A stretch of 52,496 nt of DNA, taken from a virus. Positions 1,605 through 37,382 of the stretch are shown in pieces. The stretch covers positions 1 through 52,496 of the IMG/VR virus record IMGVR_UViG_3300020131_000006; one strand, given 5' to 3'. The notes below the pieces were generated by a model. That model was not told the DNA's origin, made no database searches, and saw nothing but the letters and a program-made list of their open reading frames with translations. The number at the start of each line of letters is the position of its first letter. Within the stretch, counting starts at the first letter, position 1. A program made the position numbers and the translations under genes.

Positions 1605-1741
1605 TGTATTACAATAGAGAGCTAAATGATTCCTTGTTTGGTTGTCTGATATTGGAATACTTTTACACCAACGAGCATACATTCCCTGAAGGATACACTC
1701 TAGGGGATTTTCATGAACGACTTATGAATTGGATTACATGA
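1604..1741 (+). CDS. small protein of unknown function
   Basis: 45 residues with aromatic and acidic character. It starts at an ATG overlapping the stop of the gene before, and its TGA overlaps the ATG of the DNA polymerase gene (ATGA at 1738-1741). The tight couplings on both sides are the main evidence that it is translated. No domain recognised. Confidence 0.5.
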   Translation: MYYNRELNDSLFGCLILEYFYTNEHTFPEGYTLGDFHERLMNWIT

Positions 1742-2919
1742 GACTTGTATTCGACTTTGAAACCACTGGCGCACAGAGGAATAAAGGTCATCCATTCGAC
1801 TATGTAAATAAAGCCTGTAACATTGGATTTAGAGATATTGACACAAAGCAAGTATGGATATTTAGCCTAGAGTACGATGATGAACCTTACGGAGAGAACC
1901 TTAAGCAGATACAAGAACTGCTGGATAAGACGACACTTCTCATAGGGTTCAACATGAAGTTCGATATTCATTGGCTCAGACGGTACAATCTAAATCTGAG
2001 TCGGCTATGTCGTATCTTTGATTGTCAAGGTGCTTTCTTTATCAAGTCAGGACAGATGGTTAGATACCCATCTCTGAATGGGGTAGCAGAACACTTTGGC
2101 GCAGAGGCTAAACTAGATGTAGTAAAGGAAGAGTATTGGGACAAGGGTTTAGACACAGACCAAGTTCCGTACAGGCTACTCTGTGAGTACTTAGAGCAAG
2201 ACTTGGTTGTAACAGAACAAGTATTCTTTGAGCTTCAGAAGTGGCTAGAGTCCAGTTCTTTTGAGACTAAGCGGGTAGTATCAGTAACAATGCAAGACCT
2301 CTTGGTGTTAGAAGATATGGAATGGAATGGCATGTTATTTAATCGAGATAAGAGTATTAGAAAAGGAGACGAACTTGAAACAACAATTGAAGGAATTGAT
2401 AACCGCCTCAGAGAAATCTTTGGGCAGCCTTGGGCAAACATTAATAGTGGAGAGCATCTTTCTGCTTGCCTTTATGGTGGGACTGTTCTATTGGACGGTT
2501 ACGAGTCTTACACTTTTGTTTACAAAGATGGACGAGAAGCAGAAAAACAAAGAAAAGTCAAAGTCCCGCACACTTGCAAACCTTTGTTTAGCCCACTGGA
2601 AGGAACTGCTCTTGCAAAAGAAGGCTTCTATTCAACAGACGTTGGTACGCTTAAAAAACTTGGTGAGAAAGCCAAGGGGGTGCAACGGGAAGTCATCGAG
2701 CTTCTAACCAATCGAAGTAAACTTGAGAAACGTAGAGGCACATACTTCCATGGTATTCCCAAGAAGGCAATTGAGTTTAATTGGGAAGATAATGTAGTAC
2801 ATGCCAATCTGAATCAATGTGTTGCCAGAACAGGCCGGCTTAGTTCCGATAAACCAAACCTGCAAAACATTGAGGAAGATGTGAAAGAAGTATTTATTAC
2901 GAGGTTCTCCTATGGGTGA
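1738..2919 (+). CDS. DNA polymerase family A, N-terminal part (exonuclease and start of palm)
   Basis: 393 residues from ATG 1738; a longer TTG-started reading from 1729 is less likely because 1738 gives an ATGA coupling. The first ~180 residues are a proofreading 3'-5' exonuclease: DFETTG (Exo I), NMKFDIHWL (Exo II) and YLEQDLVV (Exo III). The polymerase part follows, with RTGRLSSDKPNLQNI just before the end. The protein stops immediately before motif A, and that motif opens the gene at 3147. The polymerase is therefore encoded by two genes with a small unrelated gene between. The two products presumably assemble into one enzyme. From memory, LUZ24-like phages interrupt the polymerase gene as well, but by an intron. 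Confidence 0.88.
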   Translation: MRLVFDFETTGAQRNKGHPFDYVNKACNIGFRDIDTKQVWIFSLEYDDEPYGENLKQIQELLDKTTLLIGFNMKFDIHWLRRYNLNLSRLCRIFDCQGAFFIKSGQMVRYPSLNGVAEHFGAEAKLDVVKEEYWDKGLDTDQVPYRLLCEYLEQDLVVTEQVFFELQKWLESSSFETKRVVSVTMQDLLVLEDMEWNGMLFNRDKSIRKGDELETTIEGIDNRLREIFGQPWANINSGEHLSACLYGGTVLLDGYESYTFVYKDGREAEKQRKVKVPHTCKPLFSPLEGTALAKEGFYSTDVGTLKKLGEKAKGVQREVIELLTNRSKLEKRRGTYFHGIPKKAIEFNWEDNVVHANLNQCVARTGRLSSDKPNLQNIEEDVKEVFITRFSYG

Positions 2920-3157
2920 AATGGCAGAGTATTATTTGGAGCAAAGTCTATTTGGAGAAGATTGGGAATGGGCACACAACCCAATACCAAGACGAAGAAC
3001 TACATGGACAACCAGAGAAGGTAAGATACTAGAAATTTCCAAAATGGAAACTTCCCATATTAAGAACTGCATTAATTTACTTCGTAAGAAACAAATTCCA
3101 GTACCCTCTGAGTTTTACCGTGTTCTAAAAGAAAGGGGGGAAGGGAATGCTCGCTAA
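2912..3157 (+). CDS. small gene inserted between the two polymerase halves
   Basis: 81 residues. The middle resembles a widespread small phage/bacterial motif of the form W-T-x-x-[DE]-G-x-x-[IL]-x-I-x-x-M-x-x-x-H-[LI]-x-N, here WTTREGKILEISKMETSHIKN. GAGG (2901-2904) is a good ribosome binding site. It overlaps the end of the upstream polymerase half by 8 bases and the start of the downstream half by 11, so it exactly fills the gap. Its function is unknown and nothing in it suggests a polymerase domain. It is read in a third frame relative to both halves. Confidence 0.72.
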   Translation: MGEMAEYYLEQSLFGEDWEWAHNPIPRRRTTWTTREGKILEISKMETSHIKNCINLLRKKQIPVPSEFYRVLKERGEGNAR

Positions 3158-3899
3158 CTTCGACGCAGCACAACTAGAATGGAGAGCTTTTGCTCACCTT
3201 TCTGGAGATAAAACAGCTATCCGTGAGATTAACGAAGGTTTGGACTTCCACTCTGATAATCAGGAAAAGTTTAAACTTCCTTCTCGTCTGGTAGCTAAAG
3301 TCTTTCTATTTAGAAACATCTACTGTCCTTGGTGGTTGGCTGAACGGACCGCATATGCTTATTCGGTTGACAATGACTTTAAGGATGTGGGTGGTGTTAA
3401 GTTTTGGAGAGCTGCTATTGATGCTTTCTATGAAAAATACACAGGAGGTTATGAGTACCACAAGAAGCTCAAGAATGAGGCTACAACTACAGGGCAAATC
3501 ATTAGTGAAACAGGCCGCATCCATCCTATTCAGCCCGTCCTCAGACGTGGGCAAATGGAATGGCCTGATAGTGACATAGCCAACTATCCTGTTCAGGGCT
3601 TCAGCGCCGACCTAATGGCCTTGGCGCGGGTGTCTGCGTGGAATAGACTGCGGGAATATCGAGAGAGAGGCGAAGTATTATTCGTTAATTCAGTACATGA
3701 CTCGATAGTTCTTGACATAAATACAGATGAATGGTATAATATTTGTATAACTATGAAAAAGACGTTCAGAGATATTCCTGCGAACTTCGAGAAAATATAC
3801 GGGAAGAAACTTTTGGTTCCTATGGATTCAGATGCAAAGGTAGGAGTCAATTGGTTGTGGCAACATAAAATACAAATACAAGAAAAGGATTTACATTAA
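3147..3899 (+). CDS. DNA polymerase family A, C-terminal part (palm and fingers)
   Basis: 250 residues beginning at motif A, NFDAAQLEWR (residues 4-13), with the metal-binding aspartate. The motif B helix RLVAKVFLFRNIY (about 47-59) follows, and motif C is SVHDSIVLD, with the second catalytic aspartate. A strong ribosome binding site (AAGGGGGGAAGGG) precedes ATG 3147. Where family members normally continue IYG, this protein reads IYCPWWLAERTAYAYS, so the glycine is replaced and about seven residues are added. Joined to the upstream half, the sequence runs VFITRFSYG then MLANFDAAQ with no missing family residues. Confidence 0.88.
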   Translation: MLANFDAAQLEWRAFAHLSGDKTAIREINEGLDFHSDNQEKFKLPSRLVAKVFLFRNIYCPWWLAERTAYAYSVDNDFKDVGGVKFWRAAIDAFYEKYTGGYEYHKKLKNEATTTGQIISETGRIHPIQPVLRRGQMEWPDSDIANYPVQGFSADLMALARVSAWNRLREYRERGEVLFVNSVHDSIVLDINTDEWYNICITMKKTFRDIPANFEKIYGKKLLVPMDSDAKVGVNWLWQHKIQIQEKDLH

Positions 3900-21428: not shown

Positions 21429-22097
21429 TTAACCGAAGCTATAACCTGCATATACATCTTTAGGTGGATTCATTGATCTAGCAATACCTGCTTGATAATT
21501 TGAATTGTCTGCAACCTCTTGGTCAGCCTTTGACTTAGCTAAACCAACACCCGCATTACCAACACCAGCTAGTTCCATCAAGCGACCCATAGAACTATTG
21601 TACTGATCTTCTACACCACCCATAGCTTTGAGCAGTCGGTCGAACTGAGCACCATATTCTGTAGAGGCCATATTCTGACCACGTTCTTGTAACTCGACAG
21701 CAGCATTACCACTATTCAGCAACCCACGCGCACCTAAGCTACGCTCAAGCATACGCTGGCCTTCGTCAAAACGCCATTGATAACTTGGGTCATCTGGGGA
21801 GAATTCTCCCATAGTCATTTGCTGTAGCCTGTCACGGTAAATATCTGATGGATCATTACCAGCCATATTAGCTAGTTTATCAGCAGCACCACCTCGATAA
21901 TAACCCCACGGGTCTATTGAACGTTGTTGTTCCATTGCACCACGCTGGTTGGCAAAGTTAGCAGCCTGACTTCCAGCCAGAGAGTTTCCATCACCCATGT
22001 ATCCGAAAGACTGACGTTGTAACTCTAGGAGTTTGTTTCTATCAGTAGTATAGTCACCAGCAGGTGTAAAATTTAATGGGGCTGTTGGTCTAGCCAT
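21429..22097 (-). CDS. DNA transfer / internal virion protein
   Basis: 222 residues, glutamine-, alanine- and glycine-rich. The stretch WRFDEGQRMLERSLGARGLL (about 107-126) followed by SGNAAVELQERGQNMAS is a signature I know from podovirus proteins placed after the tail-completion genes. Such proteins are injected or line the tail channel. Function is inferred from this and from gene order. Confidence 0.62.
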   Translation of the reverse strand: MARPTAPLNFTPAGDYTTDRNKLLELQRQSFGYMGDGNSLAGSQAANFANQRGAMEQQRSIDPWGYYRGGAADKLANMAGNDPSDIYRDRLQQMTMGEFSPDDPSYQWRFDEGQRMLERSLGARGLLNSGNAAVELQERGQNMASTEYGAQFDRLLKAMGGVEDQYNSSMGRLMELAGVGNAGVGLAKSKADQEVADNSNYQAGIARSMNPPKDVYAGYSFG

Positions 22098-23432
22098 TTA
22101 GTTTGTTCCTTCTAAGAAAGATGGTTCTAATGCCTCTAATCTAAGAGGACAAGTATCATGATGACGTATTTCATAAGCTCTACGTCTTGCTCGTCCCATA
22201 CGAGACAACATACTCTTATCTCTATTCAAATCAACAGCGCGGTACTTAGACCAATTCTGGTAGTCGTCGTCGGTGTATCTTAAGTAAGCGAAAGACTCTA
22301 CCTTATCTCCAACAATTTCAATCTGAGAAGTGAATTTCTCTTTGGTACTTCCTGCATCAAACTTAAATGTTCGAATTAGAACATCAATGGGATTGCCATT
22401 ATCCGCGTACGTACCATTATCAATCATAAAGATGTAACCTGTGGTGCTGTCTTGAACGAAGTCAATGTTGTCACCAGAGGTATAGGAAGCTATAGCGAAA
22501 GGCTCTTTATCATAGCCAAACAGAGTACCAAGAACAGTTGCAGTACCGGGATTATCTAGCAAAGCATAGCTAAAGGTATTAGCATCAATGTACGAAATGG
22601 TATGAGAACCATTATATTGTTGTGGAGTACAGCCAGTAATAACTACTCTATCACCATCAGCAAAACCATGATTGGTAAGAGTTACAGTTACAGAACGATT
22701 ACTCCAAACAAGACCGCCAATGTTCTGAGAGTCTTGTGGGATGCAAACAGACCACGTGGCAAATTGCTGTGTGGTTACATCGTAGACTAGAGTAATACCT
22801 ACTGTACCTAAGTAAAGAACATAGAACACATGACCAGAAATACGAATACAGAAGGCAGTAACATTCTGCATATCATCTTTATTCAGTATACGATCAATGA
22901 ATGGGTTAGACAGATACTCAGGATTAGTCCCCACAAACCTATAAATACCACGACCCTTCTGTTTAGTAACACCAACAAAGAACATAGAGTTATCTGTTTG
23001 TGCTACTGTTCCTGCTGCCGCACAACCAACCTCAACTAGGGCACTGTCGTAAGGAAGCAAAGGACTTCCTGCTGCTGGAGGATTTGGATTGGAGTAGAAG
23101 AACTCAGTTGCGTAAGCCCCCATGGAAACCAAGAGGTTCAACTGACGGCCTAAATAAACACCATCATCAGGTTCCGCATGAGACTGAATTACATTAAGAG
23201 CTGACCAAGTAAGAGGGTCATTAATCTCAGAACCGAAGACAGTACCATTAGAGTTCATAACATAGTAGGTACCATCCATATACTGTATGCCCGGAACTGT
23301 GTTCGCAGGATAGTCTGGGTCAGTAATTTGTGTTACAGTAGTTCCATCGAAGTAGTACGCAGCAGTCTCAGACTTATAAACAAAGCCAACACCAGATACT
23401 GGAGATTCTTGTATGAATTCGAATGTAGCCAT
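22098..23432 (-). CDS. P22 gp10-like tail protein, main C-terminal part of a split gene
   Basis: 444 residues. Family landmarks: TQITDPDYPANTVPG (about 34-48), DGTYYVM (53-59), NDPLTWSALN (71-80), EPDDGVYLGRQLN (about 87-99), ATEFFYS (108-114) and a C-terminal LRLEALEPS strand. The family normally starts about 100 residues earlier, with an N-terminal arm containing a KRPG motif. That arm is encoded separately at 25140-25445. Three genes lie between. A beta insert (about 239-303, VTLTNHGFADGDRVVITG) is a known add-on of phage tail proteins. The product should close the tail and hold the DNA. Confidence 0.82.
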   Translation of the reverse strand: MATFEFIQESPVSGVGFVYKSETAAYYFDGTTVTQITDPDYPANTVPGIQYMDGTYYVMNSNGTVFGSEINDPLTWSALNVIQSHAEPDDGVYLGRQLNLLVSMGAYATEFFYSNPNPPAAGSPLLPYDSALVEVGCAAAGTVAQTDNSMFFVGVTKQKGRGIYRFVGTNPEYLSNPFIDRILNKDDMQNVTAFCIRISGHVFYVLYLGTVGITLVYDVTTQQFATWSVCIPQDSQNIGGLVWSNRSVTVTLTNHGFADGDRVVITGCTPQQYNGSHTISYIDANTFSYALLDNPGTATVLGTLFGYDKEPFAIASYTSGDNIDFVQDSTTGYIFMIDNGTYADNGNPIDVLIRTFKFDAGSTKEKFTSQIEIVGDKVESFAYLRYTDDDYQNWSKYRAVDLNRDKSMLSRMGRARRRAYEIRHHDTCPLRLEALEPSFLEGTN

Positions 23433-23435
23433 TAG

Positions 23436-24374
23436 TTATCCAATTACCCCGCTGAGAGAGCCTATGTTAGTTAAATCTCCGAAAGCATTTGTTTGCTCAT
23501 CATGAAACTCTAAAATATTTAGAGGGGATTTGTATGAGAAAAGACCGAGGAAAGTAGTCCCTTTCATAAGTTTAATTCTACTAAATGTTTCGGTGTTTAG
23601 GTATCCGGCTGTATATGTATCATTTATTTGATTAGAGTAAATATCACTTAAAACAATGAAGCCACCTTCTCTATCACCCGGTTGCCCAGTTCCAAATCCA
23701 AAGTCAGCATTAGGAAAGATAAAACCACTTTGATCTACTCCTCTAGCTACTATGGTGGCATTAGCTCCATCTACCCCATACTCAGAGTCTGGGTAGAATG
23801 CGTAAAAGACTCTGCTGCCCGGGCTTCCGGATTGGACAGGAACAGGAACAGAGTACCCACTGATAGTGCCTGTGAAGAATACTTCTGGCTCCTCTGGTAG
23901 AATCTCTGTACTGAAAACAACATTTGCCATTTCTCCGTTAACGGCTTGTCTATAAAATTCTAAACTTTCAAAATTATCTAAGGTGATAACAGAGGGATTA
24001 GCTAAAATTAAGTCACCATTTAAATAACTGTTATTCTGTAGTGGGGTTACTGACAGTTTAAAGTGAATGTTATAGTTAGATACAGGAACTTCAACAGTGT
24101 ACCCAGTGGAAATTCCGATACCAAGTGAAACTATTCCATTTCCTATAGAAAGAGTAAAGTTTTGAGTTCTAGAAGTAATATAAAGAAACTGCTCCTCATG
24201 CTCTGGAACAAACCCAACTATATCGAATTCAAAAATAAGTTCTTCTGAGGTCACAGCCTCAACTACTCCAGACACTTCAGCCGTACCCATAGTCTCTCCA
24301 GCCATATCAGCGTAAAGCTGGTAGGTGAATTGGTCAGAGTCTATTACATTAACAATATCGTATTTTTTAGCCAT
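23436..24374 (-). CDS. tail-region protein with shared KKYDIV module, copy C
   Basis: 312 residues. Residues 1-40 are the shared module: KKYDIVNVIDSD, FTYQLY (16-21), then GTAEVSGVVE. The remaining ~270 residues are beta-rich with a jelly-roll-like flavour (VFFTGTISGYSVPVPVQSG, FGFGTGQPGDREG) and no family I recognise. It lies inside the split tail gene, between the two parts of the gp10-like protein. The shared start suggests docking to a common virion site with a variable outer domain. Role is inference. Confidence 0.62.
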   Translation of the reverse strand: MAKKYDIVNVIDSDQFTYQLYADMAGETMGTAEVSGVVEAVTSEELIFEFDIVGFVPEHEEQFLYITSRTQNFTLSIGNGIVSLGIGISTGYTVEVPVSNYNIHFKLSVTPLQNNSYLNGDLILANPSVITLDNFESLEFYRQAVNGEMANVVFSTEILPEEPEVFFTGTISGYSVPVPVQSGSPGSRVFYAFYPDSEYGVDGANATIVARGVDQSGFIFPNADFGFGTGQPGDREGGFIVLSDIYSNQINDTYTAGYLNTETFSRIKLMKGTTFLGLFSYKSPLNILEFHDEQTNAFGDLTNIGSLSGVIG

Positions 24375-24724
24375 TAAGAGAACTTAATTGTCTGTCCGGG
24401 TTTTAGTGGAAGAAGACCTTCTTGAAAGTCAGTGTAAAATATAATGTTACGATATGTAAAAGCTTCAGTAGAAGGTAGGGAAAGTGTTACTACATTACCC
24501 ACGACATTCGTTACACTAGTTCCAGAACGAAGACCATTAGCGTAGACATATAAACCAATCGAAATTCCAGAGCCAGAATTTACTGTTAGGGAAGTGGAAG
24601 CGTCAGCTATGGTTCCAATCCTAGAGATTGCTGGTGGTGGTATAATCTCAAACTGAGTATATTGTTCCCTATTAAAGATGTTATCTGAAATAGTAACTAA
24701 TTGTAGTTCTTCATCTGTAGGCAT
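24374..24724 (-). CDS. beta-rich virion protein inserted in split tail gene
   Basis: 116 residues, start at 24724. The middle (SLTVNSGSGISIGLYVYANG and SVTNVVGNVVTLSL) looks like an immunoglobulin-like or beta-sandwich repeat common in phage structural proteins. The start overlaps the stop of the 24724-25140 gene and the stop overlaps the next start. Function unknown. Confidence 0.58.
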   Translation of the reverse strand: MPTDEELQLVTISDNIFNREQYTQFEIIPPPAISRIGTIADASTSLTVNSGSGISIGLYVYANGLRSGTSVTNVVGNVVTLSLPSTEAFTYRNIIFYTDFQEGLLPLKPGQTIKFS

Positions 24725-25140
24725 TATTCCTCCAGTACTTCAAGAGAACTCACTGGGATGCGTGGGATTAGGGAAATGTCAATCTCTACAGGACCATCAG
24801 TAATCTCAGCGAAATATAGAAGAGTGCCTGCACCAGTAGCGGCTGTACCTATACCAAAATAGGTTACTTCAACTGCTGGTTCTGCTTCACATTGTGGGAA
24901 CTCAATCTCCGCGGTATTGCTAATGGAGTTAGCATTGACAGTGAAGCCACCACTATTTCTAGTAACAGCTACGCGCTCATATCCTTCGTAATCCACTTCA
25001 TTAGTGGTTTGATCTCCAGCCACAGTTGGAGTATCTGTATGCAAAGAGATATATAGATTGGTATTAGCATTCCAAGGAAGTGCTGTCCCATTAAAAAGAA
25101 GGGTAACTAACTGCGTCCCAAACACTACGGTTTTTGGCAT
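24724..25140 (-). CDS. phage structural protein, common tail-associated family
   Basis: 138 residues. LYISLHTDTPT (about 28-38), TTNEVDYEGYERVAVTR (about 43-60), IEFPQC and TYFGIGTAATGAGTLLY are the landmarks of a family recurring next to tail-fibre genes of many phages. Here it lies between the two parts of the gp10-like tail gene. Coupled to both neighbours by single-base overlaps. Role in the virion is not established. Confidence 0.62.
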   Translation of the reverse strand: MPKTVVFGTQLVTLLFNGTALPWNANTNLYISLHTDTPTVAGDQTTNEVDYEGYERVAVTRNSGGFTVNANSISNTAEIEFPQCEAEPAVEVTYFGIGTAATGAGTLLYFAEITDGPVEIDISLIPRIPVSSLEVLEE

Positions 25141-25445
25141 TATATATAATCCTCATTACTGATAACTACACTCTGAGCACCAAACATATTTCCGCTAGGG
25201 ATGAAGCCACCTAAGATGCCGGGGTTAGTTGTGACGTACCAGACGGTACCATTGTGATAAAAGATACCTCGATTGAGTCCTGTGGTAACACCATCAGAAC
25301 CCATTACAAAGCCGGGCCTCTTAACTGCAAAAATAGCCCCATAGGGATTCTTCTCAACAAAGGCATTCTGTAACAAAGCATCTTTGTCTAGGTTAGCATC
25401 ACGAGGCTCTGTTGGGACACCAAGCTCTAAACGTTTTCTTTCCAA
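25140..25445 (-). CDS. P22 gp10-like tail protein, N-terminal part of a split gene
   Basis: 101 residues: MERKRLELGVPTEPRDANL, then NAFVEKNPYGAIF and VKRPGF (41-46). In the phage proteins I recall, this region is joined directly to the segment starting at 23432 (FEFIQESPVSGVGF). Here it stops after SVVISNEDYI and three genes intervene before the rest. It either assembles with the larger part or the original gene was interrupted and then refitted. Frame and reading are clean, with no sign of decay. Confidence 0.75.
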   Translation of the reverse strand: MERKRLELGVPTEPRDANLDKDALLQNAFVEKNPYGAIFAVKRPGFVMGSDGVTTGLNRGIFYHNGTVWYVTTNPGILGGFIPSGNMFGAQSVVISNEDYI

Positions 25446-26438
25446 TTAAGTATCCCTCTTTTTATACACAGATATTAAAGTCTCTTCTCCAGAAGGAAGA
25501 CCGAGAACATAAATGCTTCCATTGATGTACCCCATCACTCCAGAAGTTATCAGTGGCATTTCTTCAGGGGTCAGGATATGTTCTATAGGAGCTGAAGCAC
25601 CATCTGGAATTTCCAGTAAAACATTGGTATTGTTAGTTCTTCCAAAAATGTAATTAGTTGTGCCTATTTTAGTTTTGAATTGTCCAAAGACAGAACCACC
25701 AGAGCTAGTCCAATAGAGACTCCAGTTAGTCCCATCAGAAGTCTTCCAAATGTCACCACCATTTGCTCCGAAAACTCTCATAACATATAAGTTATTAGTA
25801 TCCTCGAACCAAATACCGGAATTACCTACTGTCGGCAGCCCTACAGTTTCGTGCCAATCCCCACTCTTAGTTGTCCAGTCCATTCTCCACATGTCATTAG
25901 TAAATGAATCATTTGGAAGTGTGTACATGTAATTATTAAAAACTACATGTTCTCTAGAATCAAACCAGTCAGGAGCATTTCCAGATACACGACTCCAAGT
26001 AGTATAGGGAGTACTAGTTTGACACCACTCGAAGTCACCAATATCTAAACTTGTAAAAGCATATAGGACAGACTCGTACTCATATGGAAATATCCCATAA
26101 TAAAGATAAGCAGTAGCGGGATAAGAGCCTGCTTCCCCCGCATTAATAGGAGTACCATTATCTAAATCAGACAAAGACCAAAGAGTAACAGTTCCATTGG
26201 GGTCTGTATCTATAAAGGTACCAATATATGCCGTATCTTCTGTATAATAATAGATTCCTATAAGATTTTCAGCCCCCAAATCAAACTGGTTAACTAGGTC
26301 AAAGATATTGGGGTCTTCGGCTTCTACAGTTCCACTAACCTCTACTGTACCTGTAGTAGTACCAGCCATATCCACATACAACTGATACGTAAACTGGTTA
26401 GGTTCTAGGAAGTTAACAATGTCATACTTTTTTACCAT
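25446..26438 (-). CDS. tail-region protein with shared KKYDIV module, copy B
   Basis: 330 residues. Residues 1-41 are the shared module (KKYDIVNFLEPNQ, FTYQLY 16-21, GTTTGTVEVSGTVE). The rest is aromatic-rich with repeated W, Y and NN turns, for example VVFNNYMYTLPNDSF and WFEDTNNLYVM, suggesting a beta-propeller or kelch-like fold that could bind surfaces. It lies between the gp4-like and the gp10-like N-terminal genes and overlaps the gp4-like stop by a few bases. A host-recognition or decoration role is plausible. Confidence 0.62.
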   Translation of the reverse strand: MVKKYDIVNFLEPNQFTYQLYVDMAGTTTGTVEVSGTVEAEDPNIFDLVNQFDLGAENLIGIYYYTEDTAYIGTFIDTDPNGTVTLWSLSDLDNGTPINAGEAGSYPATAYLYYGIFPYEYESVLYAFTSLDIGDFEWCQTSTPYTTWSRVSGNAPDWFDSREHVVFNNYMYTLPNDSFTNDMWRMDWTTKSGDWHETVGLPTVGNSGIWFEDTNNLYVMRVFGANGGDIWKTSDGTNWSLYWTSSGGSVFGQFKTKIGTTNYIFGRTNNTNVLLEIPDGASAPIEHILTPEEMPLITSGVMGYINGSIYVLGLPSGEETLISVYKKRDT

Positions 26439-27376
26439 TGGGTACGAATAGTTCCACGGTGATCTGGAGTAAAGAATACACCAGCTTCTTCTTGAGAGAA
26501 GTCCATGCAGTCATTCAGATACATTTCTGCTCTAGCTTGAATACGCATAATTTTATTCTCAGCAACTTCATACTCTTCACTCAACTCATTAGCCAAGTTC
26601 CACTTGAGAGCTTGGAACCATTCTTGGGGGAAGTCGAAGTTCTGAGTGCCTTCAGACATATCTTGGAACTGACGTTGTACGGTAATGTAGATAACAGAAC
26701 CATCTGCTGCCGGTACGTTATAGACATACATTAAACCATTGATTAACTGAGTGTCGTAGTAGTATTGAGTAGGGACACCAGCAGAGGATTTATTACCAAG
26801 GATGTTGTATTCTTGTTGGGATATAGCAAACAGAGTAGTGTCAAAGTTCTCTGTGTTTCTGATGTAACCATCAATGATACGTAGAGGTCTGGACATAGTA
26901 AGTCCTGCCACTATAGCAGTACCAGCAGCATTGGTACCCCCACCACTGAATGTTACAGTAGGTGCTGAGGTATATGAGTTACCACCATTTGTAATAGTTA
27001 CAGATTGGATAACACCACCAGATGCTGTATATGTACCAGTAGCACCAAGACCACCACCAGTAAAGGTAACAGTGCCGGAATTTGGATAGCCAGTTCCGCC
27101 ATTGGTAATATCTACTCGATAAATGTAACCAGCAGTAGGACCTATAGGATAGACACCTAAACCACTAAGCATAGGAACAGCAATACGTTCATATACCCAT
27201 AGAGGGAAACCCTTCTTAACCCAACTCTTAAGCATGATATTTAGAGCTTCAGAGCAATTAGCATAATCCTCTGTCTCTGCGGTTTGACCTGAGCCGATAA
27301 CAGTCAAGAGTCTTAAGGCAGCATCAATAATCTCATCGCGTGTTACGGTAAATGAATATGTTCCTGAAGTTGCCAT
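26432..27376 (-). CDS. P22 gp4-like head-tail completion protein with beta insert
   Basis: 314 residues. The N-terminus (SGTYSFTVTRDEIIDAALRL, about 4-23), NIMLKSWVKKGFPLW (46-60) and the later PTQYYYD and FPQEWFQALKWNLANELS match the gp4-like adaptor that closes the portal. Between about 86 and 160 is an insert of two similar beta repeats (ITNGGTGYPNSGTVTFTGGG, then ITNGGNSYTSAPTVTFSGGG) often added to phage tail proteins. The gene lies upstream of the gp10-like parts in transcription, the usual order. Confidence 0.75.
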   Translation of the reverse strand: MATSGTYSFTVTRDEIIDAALRLLTVIGSGQTAETEDYANCSEALNIMLKSWVKKGFPLWVYERIAVPMLSGLGVYPIGPTAGYIYRVDITNGGTGYPNSGTVTFTGGGLGATGTYTASGGVIQSVTITNGGNSYTSAPTVTFSGGGTNAAGTAIVAGLTMSRPLRIIDGYIRNTENFDTTLFAISQQEYNILGNKSSAGVPTQYYYDTQLINGLMYVYNVPAADGSVIYITVQRQFQDMSEGTQNFDFPQEWFQALKWNLANELSEEYEVAENKIMRIQARAEMYLNDCMDFSQEEAGVFFTPDHRGTIRTQW

Positions 27377-27377
27377 A

Positions 27378-28235
27378 TTAGCCTATTGTAATATTTGTAA
27401 GTGTGTTTGGTGCAGATGGGCTACTTAAAAGTAAAGTAAGTGTGCCGGAAAGAACATTAGCTGTATTAGCTATCTCAACTCCATTCCTAAAGAAATAGAT
27501 AGTTGTTCCATTCTGACTTGCTTGGAACTCACCTTCTGGACTTAATGTTTGGGTTAGATCATAAGCTATGGCACCAGCTAAAACTAAGGCTGTTCTTACT
27601 GCTGTGGTCGTGAGTATGAAAGCTACGTAATTTGAGAAGTTTGGACCTATGTATATTGCAGTAGTTGCTGTTGGAAGTCCTGTGGATGTAAATGTTGCAA
27701 TATTGTCAAGTTCTGGAACAGGAGCTTCTGCTACAATATAATTGGTTTTAGTTTCAGTATCAGAACCACCGGGACCTGTTACAGTTAGAGAGACTGTATA
27801 CTCACCAGCTTCTATGTATTCGTGAGTAGGATTCTCTAAGGTGCTTTCTGACTCATCACCAAAGTTCCACAAATAACTTGAGATTGACCCGGTACTTTCG
27901 TTGGTGAAAGTTACTGTAAATGGAACTGTATCTCCCAAAGGATTTCCAGAGAAAGCCGCTACTGGAGGTTCTCCTACTGGTGCTGTAGGGTCCCAAGGTT
28001 CTAGAGACTGAGCCCCCGAAGTAAACTCATCAGGAGCTTCTGGTCTTGATAGAACTGGTCTGGAATCATCTAGAACTCCACGAACAAAGTCCTGCGGTTG
28101 TCTAGGTTCCCAACATCTTTTGCATGTCCAAATACCGTCCCACTGTTTTGCTAACTGATGGGCCTTATACTTTTTGCCACACATATCACAGATGACATTA
28201 TTGGACCCATCTAAATAATAATCTGCTCTGCCCAT
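27378..28235 (-). CDS. zinc-finger protein with PKD domain
   Basis: 285 residues. The N-terminal ~52 residues are a zinc motif (CDMC 16-19, CKRC 38-41) followed by EPRQPQDFVRG, which I know from proteins encoded among head/tail genes of phages. Residues about 90-169 form a PKD domain (PVAAFSGNP, WNFGDE 123-128, THEYIEAGEYTVSLTV). A further beta region ends the protein. PKD domains bind carbohydrates or proteins on surfaces, so a virion-surface role is likely. Confidence 0.75.
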   Translation of the reverse strand: MGRADYYLDGSNNVICDMCGKKYKAHQLAKQWDGIWTCKRCWEPRQPQDFVRGVLDDSRPVLSRPEAPDEFTSGAQSLEPWDPTAPVGEPPVAAFSGNPLGDTVPFTVTFTNESTGSISSYLWNFGDESESTLENPTHEYIEAGEYTVSLTVTGPGGSDTETKTNYIVAEAPVPELDNIATFTSTGLPTATTAIYIGPNFSNYVAFILTTTAVRTALVLAGAIAYDLTQTLSPEGEFQASQNGTTIYFFRNGVEIANTANVLSGTLTLLLSSPSAPNTLTNITIG

Positions 28236-28243
28236 TTAAGTTC

Positions 28244-28786
28244 CTAAGACGTATATTGAAGATTTGTAACAAATACTTGTTCAGGATTAGATTCAAAAGC
28301 ATCCAAGGGTGATACTGGCACAGTAACTGTGTTATTAGAGCTTGTTATTGAACAAACGACAACACCATCTTGTGATAGAGTGTAGGTATTTCCTATCTTT
28401 TCAACTAAGATATTTCTAGTCCCATATGCCGAAACACCAGTATCTATAATGAAAGAATCCTCATCTTCAATAATACCATTAATAAATCTGCGAAGTCTTA
28501 ATTGGCTATTTACCGTTGCTCCTCTAGTAGTCTGAAAGTAGGCTTCTAAGTAATTAGAAGAAGCATAACCATCATAATACTCCCTAATCCAAGCAGCTCT
28601 AACAGAACCTCCTGCGGTAACATTTGAGGTAATTGTATATGAGAAATTTCTAAACTCCAATGGAGGGGAATCAACTACTCCAGTGACTTCGGATGTTCCA
28701 GTGGTAGTTCCTGACATATCGGTATAGAGTTGGTACGTAAAAGCATCAGAATCTATCACACTGACTATGTCATATTTCTTAGCCAC
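28244..28786 (-). CDS. tail-region protein with shared KKYDIV module, copy A
   Basis: 180 residues. Residues 1-40 carry the module (KKYDIVSVIDSD, FTYQLY 16-21, GTTTGTSEVTGVVD). The remaining ~140 residues resemble a concanavalin/laminin-G-like sandwich (RNFSYTITSNVTAGGSVRAA, then TYTLSQDGVVVCSITSS). Its start overlaps the HNH stop by one base. It is the smallest of the three module proteins. Function unknown; carbohydrate binding is a guess from the fold pattern. Confidence 0.62.
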   Translation of the reverse strand: MAKKYDIVSVIDSDAFTYQLYTDMSGTTTGTSEVTGVVDSPPLEFRNFSYTITSNVTAGGSVRAAWIREYYDGYASSNYLEAYFQTTRGATVNSQLRLRRFINGIIEDEDSFIIDTGVSAYGTRNILVEKIGNTYTLSQDGVVVCSITSSNNTVTVPVSPLDAFESNPEQVFVTNLQYTS

Positions 28787-31366: not shown

Positions 31367-32161
31367 TTATTCTCCATCAAAGTAATCTGCGACATATTGT
31401 TCACGTGTCAGAAGCTTCTGCTTCACGTACCTGTCACAGGCGATCTTGGCGTCAGCCGGAAGATCATTATATGTTTTCTTCTTGTTTTGGGATGGGCGGG
31501 ATTCACCAGAACCTGCAACTGCTGAGGCTGCGGCACGAGCATCTTGGAAAGCATCTGGACGGGCTTTCTTAACCTTCTTGACAACTTCCTCAAGAAACTC
31601 AAGACCAACCAAGTCAGGATTCTTTGCCTTAATTGCTTCACCGAAATCACCAGCTAGTTCCGTTAGTTCAGCATCAGAACCATACCAATCATTTTCTTTT
31701 GTCCAGTTCTGCCACTCGGCCTGAGTGAGAGCTGGCTTTTCTTCTTTAGGCTTGACTTCAGGGACTGTAGGAGTCTTTTGAGCTTCTTTCAGACTTTCGA
31801 TCTGCTCTTCAATCTCAACCACCCTGTCACCATCACTCTGTTCAATAGCTACTTTCTTTGCATCCTTTAGCTCTGCGAGTGCTCGTTCATAAGCCCTCTT
31901 TTCTGTTTCTTGGTGATACTTAGCAAACTCTGCAACAGTTGCTCGAATCTCTGCGATCTCTGCATCCTTTTGCTGTAGCTTGGTAAGAATCTTCTCATTC
32001 TCTTTTCGAAGGAAACCATTGATCTCCTTACCGCGACGCATGAATGTTTCTGCGTCCTTCCAATCATCTGGATTACCATTGAAGTCATCCTTAGGAACCC
32101 ATCCAAGTTCTTTGGCTTCAAGTTCTACTGGAGTAAACTCAACTGTGTTATCTTCACTCAT
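31367..32161 (-). CDS. scaffolding protein candidate
   Basis: 264 residues, acidic N-terminus (SEDNTVEFTPVELEAKELGW) and a long Lys/Glu-rich coiled-coil (about 40-145), then a short basic C-terminus with TYNDLPADAKIACDRYVKQK. Length, coiled-coil and placement between portal/GroES-like and capsid genes are typical of podovirus scaffolds. It would guide capsid assembly and leave before DNA packaging. The assignment rests on architecture and order. Confidence 0.68.
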   Translation of the reverse strand: MSEDNTVEFTPVELEAKELGWVPKDDFNGNPDDWKDAETFMRRGKEINGFLRKENEKILTKLQQKDAEIAEIRATVAEFAKYHQETEKRAYERALAELKDAKKVAIEQSDGDRVVEIEEQIESLKEAQKTPTVPEVKPKEEKPALTQAEWQNWTKENDWYGSDAELTELAGDFGEAIKAKNPDLVGLEFLEEVVKKVKKARPDAFQDARAAASAVAGSGESRPSQNKKKTYNDLPADAKIACDRYVKQKLLTREQYVADYFDGE

Positions 32162-32474
32162 TATTATCTTTCTCTAAAATGGCAAGTACATCTACATCAC
32201 GAATCAGACGGTAGTTTTTTCCGTCCTTCCCTATCCGAATCATACCGGCATACTTAGCCATAACAACTCGGTCCCCGACTTCACAACGAGCCTTATTTTC
32301 ATCACCCCAAGCCATATCACTAATCTCTATTACGATAGCATCTGTTTGGGCTAATTCATGACGCTCATGTTCACCATCGGTATACAGTACAATTCCAGAC
32401 TCTGTTTCCTTTGCTACTTGTTCTGGAAGAACTAAGATTGAAACTCCTACTGGTTTGATTCCTGAATTATTCAC
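32154..32474 (-). CDS. GroES-like co-chaperonin
   Basis: 106 residues, the usual size of Cpn10. IKPVGVSILVLPEQ (6-19), a mobile-loop region, then CEVGDRVVMAKYAGM (about 65-79), and a final beta part with LIRDVDVLAIL. T4 gp31-type co-chaperonins help the host GroEL fold capsid proteins; position between portal and capsid genes fits this. Starts 8 bases before its neighbour's stop. Confidence 0.75.
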   Translation of the reverse strand: MNNSGIKPVGVSILVLPEQVAKETESGIVLYTDGEHERHELAQTDAIVIEISDMAWGDENKARCEVGDRVVMAKYAGMIRIGKDGKNYRLIRDVDVLAILEKDNNE

Positions 32475-37057: not shown

Positions 37058-37143
37058 TGGTGGAAGCTGATGGAGTCGAACCACCTAGGAACTAGCCTGC
37101 TTGTGGGTTACAGCCACACCCCTTACCGTTCGGGCAAGCTTCC
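37058..37143 (-). tRNA. tRNA-Tyr(GUA)
   Basis: Read on the - strand. Acceptor GGAAGCT pairs perfectly with AGCTTCC. The anticodon loop CTGTAAC gives GUA, and a long variable arm is present, as expected for class II tRNA-Tyr. The T-loop is TTCGACT, and a 3' CCA is encoded. 86 bases. Confidence 0.92.
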
Positions 37144-37148
37144 TTAAT

Positions 37149-37222
37149 TGGCGATGTGTAAGGGAATTGAACCCTTGCGACCTCTTAGACAGAGAGGGAT
37201 GCTACCTCTACATCAACACATC
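37149..37222 (-). tRNA. tRNA-Asp(GUC)
   Basis: Acceptor GATGTGT pairs perfectly with ACACATC. The loop CTGTCTA gives anticodon GUC. The T-loop is TTCAATT, the discriminator base is G as usual for Asp, and CCA is encoded. 74 bases, 5 bases from tRNA-Tyr. Confidence 0.92.
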
Positions 37223-37226
37223 AGAA

Positions 37227-37303
37227 TGGTCCCCATCGGTAGATTCGAACTACCACTGTACGGTTTCTAAGACCGCTATCTCTGCCAATTGGATTACATG
37301 GGG
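37227..37303 (-). tRNA. tRNA with anticodon UAG (Leu-type), short variable loop
   Basis: Acceptor CCCCATG pairs with GATGGGG for six of seven bases, with a G-G mismatch at 7:66. The stem GCGGT/ACCGT holds loop CTTAGAA, so the anticodon is UAG and would read CUA (Leu). The variable loop is only ACAGT (5 bases), whereas bacterial tRNA-Leu has a long variable arm. T-loop TTCGAAT; CCA encoded. Identity by charging is therefore uncertain. Confidence 0.8.
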
Positions 37304-37305
37304 AA

Positions 37306-37382
37306 TGGTCTAGAAGGTAGGACTTGAACCTACGACCCCGAGCTTCCAAAGCTCTCACTCTACCAAACTGAGCTACTCCTAG
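37306..37382 (-). tRNA. tRNA-Pro(UGG)
   Basis: Acceptor CTAGGAG pairs with CTTCTAG (one G-U). The loop TTTGGAA gives UGG. The D-arm (GCTC with GAGT) and T-loop TTCAAGT are normal, and CCA is encoded. It is the first gene of the leftward transcript, just behind the promoter. Confidence 0.92.

Follow-up and report, generated by a model that had tools for sequence, protein, structure and literature searches.

The nozzle is a DNA-gating part of the phage virion and is expected to be made as one chain. This is the case for P22 gp10 and for the nozzles of Sf6, Pam1, and Pan3 (Hc3, phrog_578), whose genes are placed after that of the adaptor and whose chains carry no insert at the joint that concerns us here. 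The nozzle of SU10 (Kuravirus) is also one chain, of about 1000 residues, whose propeller takes up Ig-like nozzle domains between blades 2 and 3; nozzle domain 4 lies at about residues 303-308 (PMC9509320). T7 gp12 has a comparable propeller opening for its nozzle tip (PMC6702177), and in both the T7 and SU10 nozzles the N-terminal strands help to build the platform that meets the adaptor (PMC6702177, PMC9509320). Phage core proteins made from two genes, with both parts intact, are known among enzymes. The nrdA gene of Aeh1, split by a homing endonuclease gene, and gene 43 of Aeromonas phages 25 and 44RR are such genes-in-pieces (PMC2988022), their parts being separated by endonuclease genes or by an untranslated stretch. 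Searches of the open literature turned up no report of a gp10-type nozzle in two pieces, and one may exist elsewhere.

The window, by which we mean the whole stretch of 52,496 bases analyzed here, is a complete IMG/VR record and a single metagenomic contig. Its gene content is that of a short-tailed phage, with a family A DNA polymerase, terminase, capsid, and tail genes. As in P22, Sf6, Pam1, and Pan3, the nozzle follows the adaptor in the gene order, but in the window it is divided over two genes, an arm and a main part, with 1,707 nt holding three intact, coupled genes between them. The features of the locus, in their order along the minus strand, are as follows.

28244..28786, minus strand: 180-aa KKYDIV-module protein, the third paralogue (paralogue comparison)
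26432..27376, minus strand: adaptor of the P22 gp4 / SU10 adaptor type (PF24175, E 5e-6)
25446..26438, minus strand: 330-aa KKYDIV-module protein, adjacent to the arm on its upstream side (module common to 23436-24374 and 28244-28786)
25140..25445, minus strand: nozzle arm, 101 aa, with a TTG start and a KRPG motif (about residues 1-91 of P22 gp10)
24724..25140, minus strand: 138-aa fibre protein by sequence match, Pfam Gp80 (podophage GP4 fibre I; PF23140, PDB 8jou chain a, phrog_240)
24374..24724, minus strand: 116-aa protein (open frame overlapping each neighbour by one base)
23436..24374, minus strand: 312-aa protein with an N-terminal KKYDIV module and its own C-terminal part (paralogue comparison)
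22098..23432, minus strand: nozzle main part, 444 aa (phrog_578; P22 gp10 residues 92-472)
22536..22730, minus strand: in-chain insert of the main part, residues 235-299 (phrog_9998; alignments with and without the stretch)
21429..22097, minus strand: 222-aa protein after the nozzle gene, of DNA-ejection type (phrog_598, E 1.4e-7)

The five open reading frames from arm to main part, called intact in the first-pass annotation, were all confirmed on the minus strand at these coordinates. The single-base overlaps also described there (TAATG) were found between the arm and Gp80-type genes, the Gp80-type and 116-aa genes, and the 116-aa and 312-aa genes, but not at the last junction, where the 312-aa gene stops three bases before the main part starts (TAA-CTA-ATG). 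The TTG start of the arm was placed directly after the stop of the preceding gene, and the GC content is even across the region. The arrangement is intact, in keeping with the earlier view that it is stable and not decaying.

The arm and the main part are homologous to the two portions of a gp10-type nozzle, as had been proposed, with the N-terminal arm as a gene of its own. Profiles for each part, both built without the window sequences, were searched against the 479 ORFs of the window; the arm profile matched solely 25140-25445 (E 2.5e-13) and the main-part profile solely 22098-23432 (E 4.3e-156). The main part was also assigned by PHROGs to head closure Hc3 (phrog_578, E 4e-33). The KRPG motif is invariant in the aligned arms of fused and split relatives, and the window arm retains the R, K, N, and KRPG conserved in the arms of fused chains. 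When modelled with AlphaFold (pLDDT 88.5), the main part matched P22 gp10 (8eap_D) with Z 26.1 and an rmsd of 2.4 over 353 aligned residues. Residue 1 of this model aligned at residue 92 of both P22 gp10 and Sf6 (Z 24-26), 91 of Pan3, and 73 of Pam1, while the alignment began at residue 111 of T7 gp12 and at residue 533 of 1004 of the SU10 nozzle (Z 17.4), which has the same fold. A fused relative, L110, modelled over both parts gave a weaker model (pLDDT 71) that nonetheless aligned with residues 2-472 of P22 gp10 (Z 27.7), extending the fold match over the arm. From these two sets of alignments, the arm represents about residues 1-91, and both genes together the whole protein. Relatives of the arm were reached by profiles only, as single-sequence searches with the 101-aa arm, the 312-aa gene, and the DNA region retrieved no relatives among viral contigs or phage records. 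The arm profile had no match among PDB sequences, the arms being too divergent.

Among 105 loci with a main part, the arm is in-chain in 63 and a separate gene in 29 (window included); no arm was seen in the other 13, several of which lie where the contig ends. Clustered at 90% identity (n=59), 31 are fused, 22 are split (window included), and six are without a visible arm. All five relatives in bacterial genome contigs encode one chain. Set against the first-pass condition for refutation, homologues in which the N-terminal part is always separate, the outcome lies halfway: it is a separate gene in many of them, although not in all. On a tree of the main part, quickly made and with SH-aLRT support only, the fused or split state changes at least eight times (shuffled mean, 17), and supported (starred) branches require five of these changes. 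The count takes fissions and fusions together and should be read as approximate, as the tree has long branches and its sampling favors relatives of the window. The split is thus not peculiar to this genome, and it is recurrent and common among its relatives. HMO-2011 and MEP401, relatives by DNA polymerase, had no match to the arm or main-part profiles, and the MEP401 head closure protein retrieved another set of relatives.

Sequenced records with the split are EBPR podovirus 1 (gp31-gp30-gp29) and MW202796 (UOF82055-UOF82056-UOF81988), both divided at the same joint as the window and both with arm genes annotated as hypothetical proteins. In each, an arm gene carries an extra domain, whereas the window arm is bare. 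EBPR podovirus 1 has two arm genes and no gene between arm and main part, and its gp29 also contains the in-chain insert found at residues 235-299 of the window main part; MW202796 has a 146-nt gap with one 53-aa gene, compared to the 1,707 nt and three genes of the window.

The place of the cut, like its recurrence, is established. Every cut lies at one joint, the arm ending and the main part beginning around the same hairpin in split relatives, although the exact residue is uncertain by about 10-15 residues because the arm end and the main-part start have similar-looking strands. Fused relatives carry inserts of 0 to >500 residues at this joint, and in the L110 model the joint loop (residues 105-120) has a pLDDT below 50. 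The domains found there in relatives, whether within a single chain or attached to an arm encoded separately, include SPRY (six members), DUF6242/Vps10-type BNR, FCCH, Gly-rich, and LVIVD domains, which by their names would be of surface or binding kinds. According to the models, the joint appears to be a flexible beta-propeller loop that would correspond to the opening of the SU10 propeller with its nozzle domains; these precede the aligned part, since domain 4 is around 303-308 and the alignment starts at 533. The T7 gp12 alignment starts somewhat before the nozzle-tip opening of that protein. SU10 accommodates its domains within one chain, whereas the window has an open joint occupied by separate genes.

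What is unusual in the window is a bare arm together with three whole genes, one of fibre type, where relatives have a domain. The product of 24724-25140 was identified by sequence comparison as a Gp80-type fibre protein, matching PF23140 over residues 9-133 (E 1.4e-19; 71.2 bits against a Pfam cut-off of 27) and the GP4 structure in PDB 8jou chain a (E 1.9e-5); in PHROGs it falls in phrog_240, head protein. Gp80 relatives were seen in three other records, in none of them between arm and main part. The 116-aa protein had no match in Pfam or PHROGs. The 312-aa protein shares an N-terminal KKYDIV module of 40-54 aa with the products of 25446-26438 and 28244-28786 (59-72% protein identity, over the module only), and the C-terminal parts of the three differ. 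With their common N-terminus and differing remainder, these proteins resemble anchor-plus-variable-domain proteins; a search with one of them retrieved no relatives. Their position suggests that the KKYDIV proteins are part of the virion, and the three gap-gene products may all be tail or virion surface proteins. By eye only, the C-terminal part of the 330-aa protein looks Asp-box/kelch-like.

The two nearest relatives of the window are the loci L035 and L036, with which it forms a supported clade (99*) that is entirely split. The window arm is closest by identity to their arms (36 and 35%), its adaptor shares 48-50% identity with its L036 and L035 counterparts, and the 222-aa protein, at 58-62% identity, fixes the synteny. 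L035 has the full order portal-GroES-scaffold-MCP-adaptor-arm-main part-222-aa protein, and L036 has the part of it that starts at GroES. In neither do genes intervene at the joint, and one arm-plus-domain gene abuts the main part. These relatives bear on the first-pass proposal that the three inserted genes split the gene, that is, that in this lineage an uninterrupted gp10 coding sequence received a block of three genes and its parts still assemble. Three intact genes do lie exactly between both parts, and fused relatives such as L038 are close on the tree. The proposal has to contend, however, with 21 other clusters that are split, mostly with no intervening gene and with arm and main genes abutting (-4 to +12 nt) in 20 of them, and with L035 and L036, the nearest of all. 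The block also holds neither endonuclease nor intron, as the three genes had no Pfam nuclease and an Rfam scan found no intron family. We consider such an origin of the split unlikely. Because L035 and L036 are also split, the three genes would have entered between genes and not into coding sequence. Judging from these three sequences, the gene was probably already split, and the three genes then entered between the two genes or replaced a domain; the L035/L036 line may instead have lost genes that once lay at the joint.

The reading we favor, and hold to be probable, is that of a functional two-chain nozzle, in which one subunit comes from two genes at a hotspot for surface modules. Both genes would encode one nozzle subunit as two chains, most likely translated from one operon, with the 444-aa chain providing the remaining propeller and the C-terminal platform. 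Below the adaptor, the two chains would assemble non-covalently into a hexameric tail nozzle, with the cut in a flexible loop at which the chain was cut or rejoined several times among relatives. In the window, a bare arm and three separate genes at the joint would take the place of the extra surface-type domain. Both chains are presumed to be present in the virion and to assemble there. To our knowledge, no protein or structure is known for this phage or for any split relative.

Were the two parts no longer one protein, the main part would work without the arm, which would be a leftover or serve another purpose. The additional bare arm genes of many relatives indicate that an arm can occur on its own, off the main chain. 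The window arm, however, keeps the conserved residues of fused-chain arms, and the N-terminal strands are used in the adaptor-contacting platform of the T7 and SU10 nozzles (PMC6702177, PMC9509320), so that we regard this alternative as very improbable. Least credible is an assembly artefact joining unrelated contigs. The arrangement is present in one contig only, with the KKYDIV module present three times, but the module copies are just 59-72% identical in protein, the genes overlap by one base, GC is even, and the flanks are ordered as in L035 and L036.

Two arm genes are present in 17 of the 22 split clusters, one bare (82-126 aa) and one with an extra domain, and these are 28-53% identical. 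Examples of two arm genes upstream of the main part are loci L027, L041, L046, L050, L055, L072, and others. As a hexameric nozzle meets a dodecameric adaptor, we speculate that a second arm could fill the remaining adaptor sites.

A gp10-type nozzle and genes-in-pieces are both known; three whole genes in the gap of a recurrent cut were seen here alone. Compared to nrdA and gene 43, the protein is structural, no endonuclease is involved, and the cut recurs at one joint. Fission and fusion have recurred at a single loop where variable surface-type domains also dock, so that the relatives form a natural set of split beta-propellers, and the joint indicates where phages can alter outward-facing parts with the core unharmed. 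The split would account for the missing N-terminus of some annotated 'stabilization proteins' of environmental podoviruses, and whether a phage nozzle can work as two chains becomes a testable question. With the two-chain nozzle, the open joint may possibly act as a socket, with separately encoded surface proteins (the Gp80 fibre and the KKYDIV proteins) binding where relatives have covalent domains, a suggestion we offer tentatively and hold to be rather doubtful. If true, receptor-binding modules would be exchangeable as whole genes, with the nozzle core untouched.

The nozzle had been described as the second core gene broken in this genome, with the suggestion that new genes are tolerated inside coding sequences. 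The other one, in all likelihood, is the family A DNA polymerase, which is split into 1729-2919 (396 aa) and 3147-3899 (250 aa); an 81-aa ORF (2912-3157) bridges the two, overlapping each at one end. A polymerase split with a small ORF, as at 1729-3899 in the window, has been published for the Methylophilales phages MEP401/MEP402 (PMC10580990), the gene being other than the nozzle. Given that precedent, two genes in pieces do not imply a peculiar tolerance of this phage.

Several other features of the genome were observed. A conserved 82-aa protein is extended by a PKD domain at 27378-28235, and its L035 and L036 homologues are without this domain. The adaptor (26432-27376) contains an in-chain GGTGY-repeat insert that is absent from the shorter L035 homologue. 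A GroES-like gene (32154-32474) lies between portal and scaffold; it is kept in L035-L037 and is annotated in Alcaligenes phage QDWS535. Four tRNA genes (Tyr, Asp, Leu, Pro) stand in a row at 37058-37382 on the minus strand.
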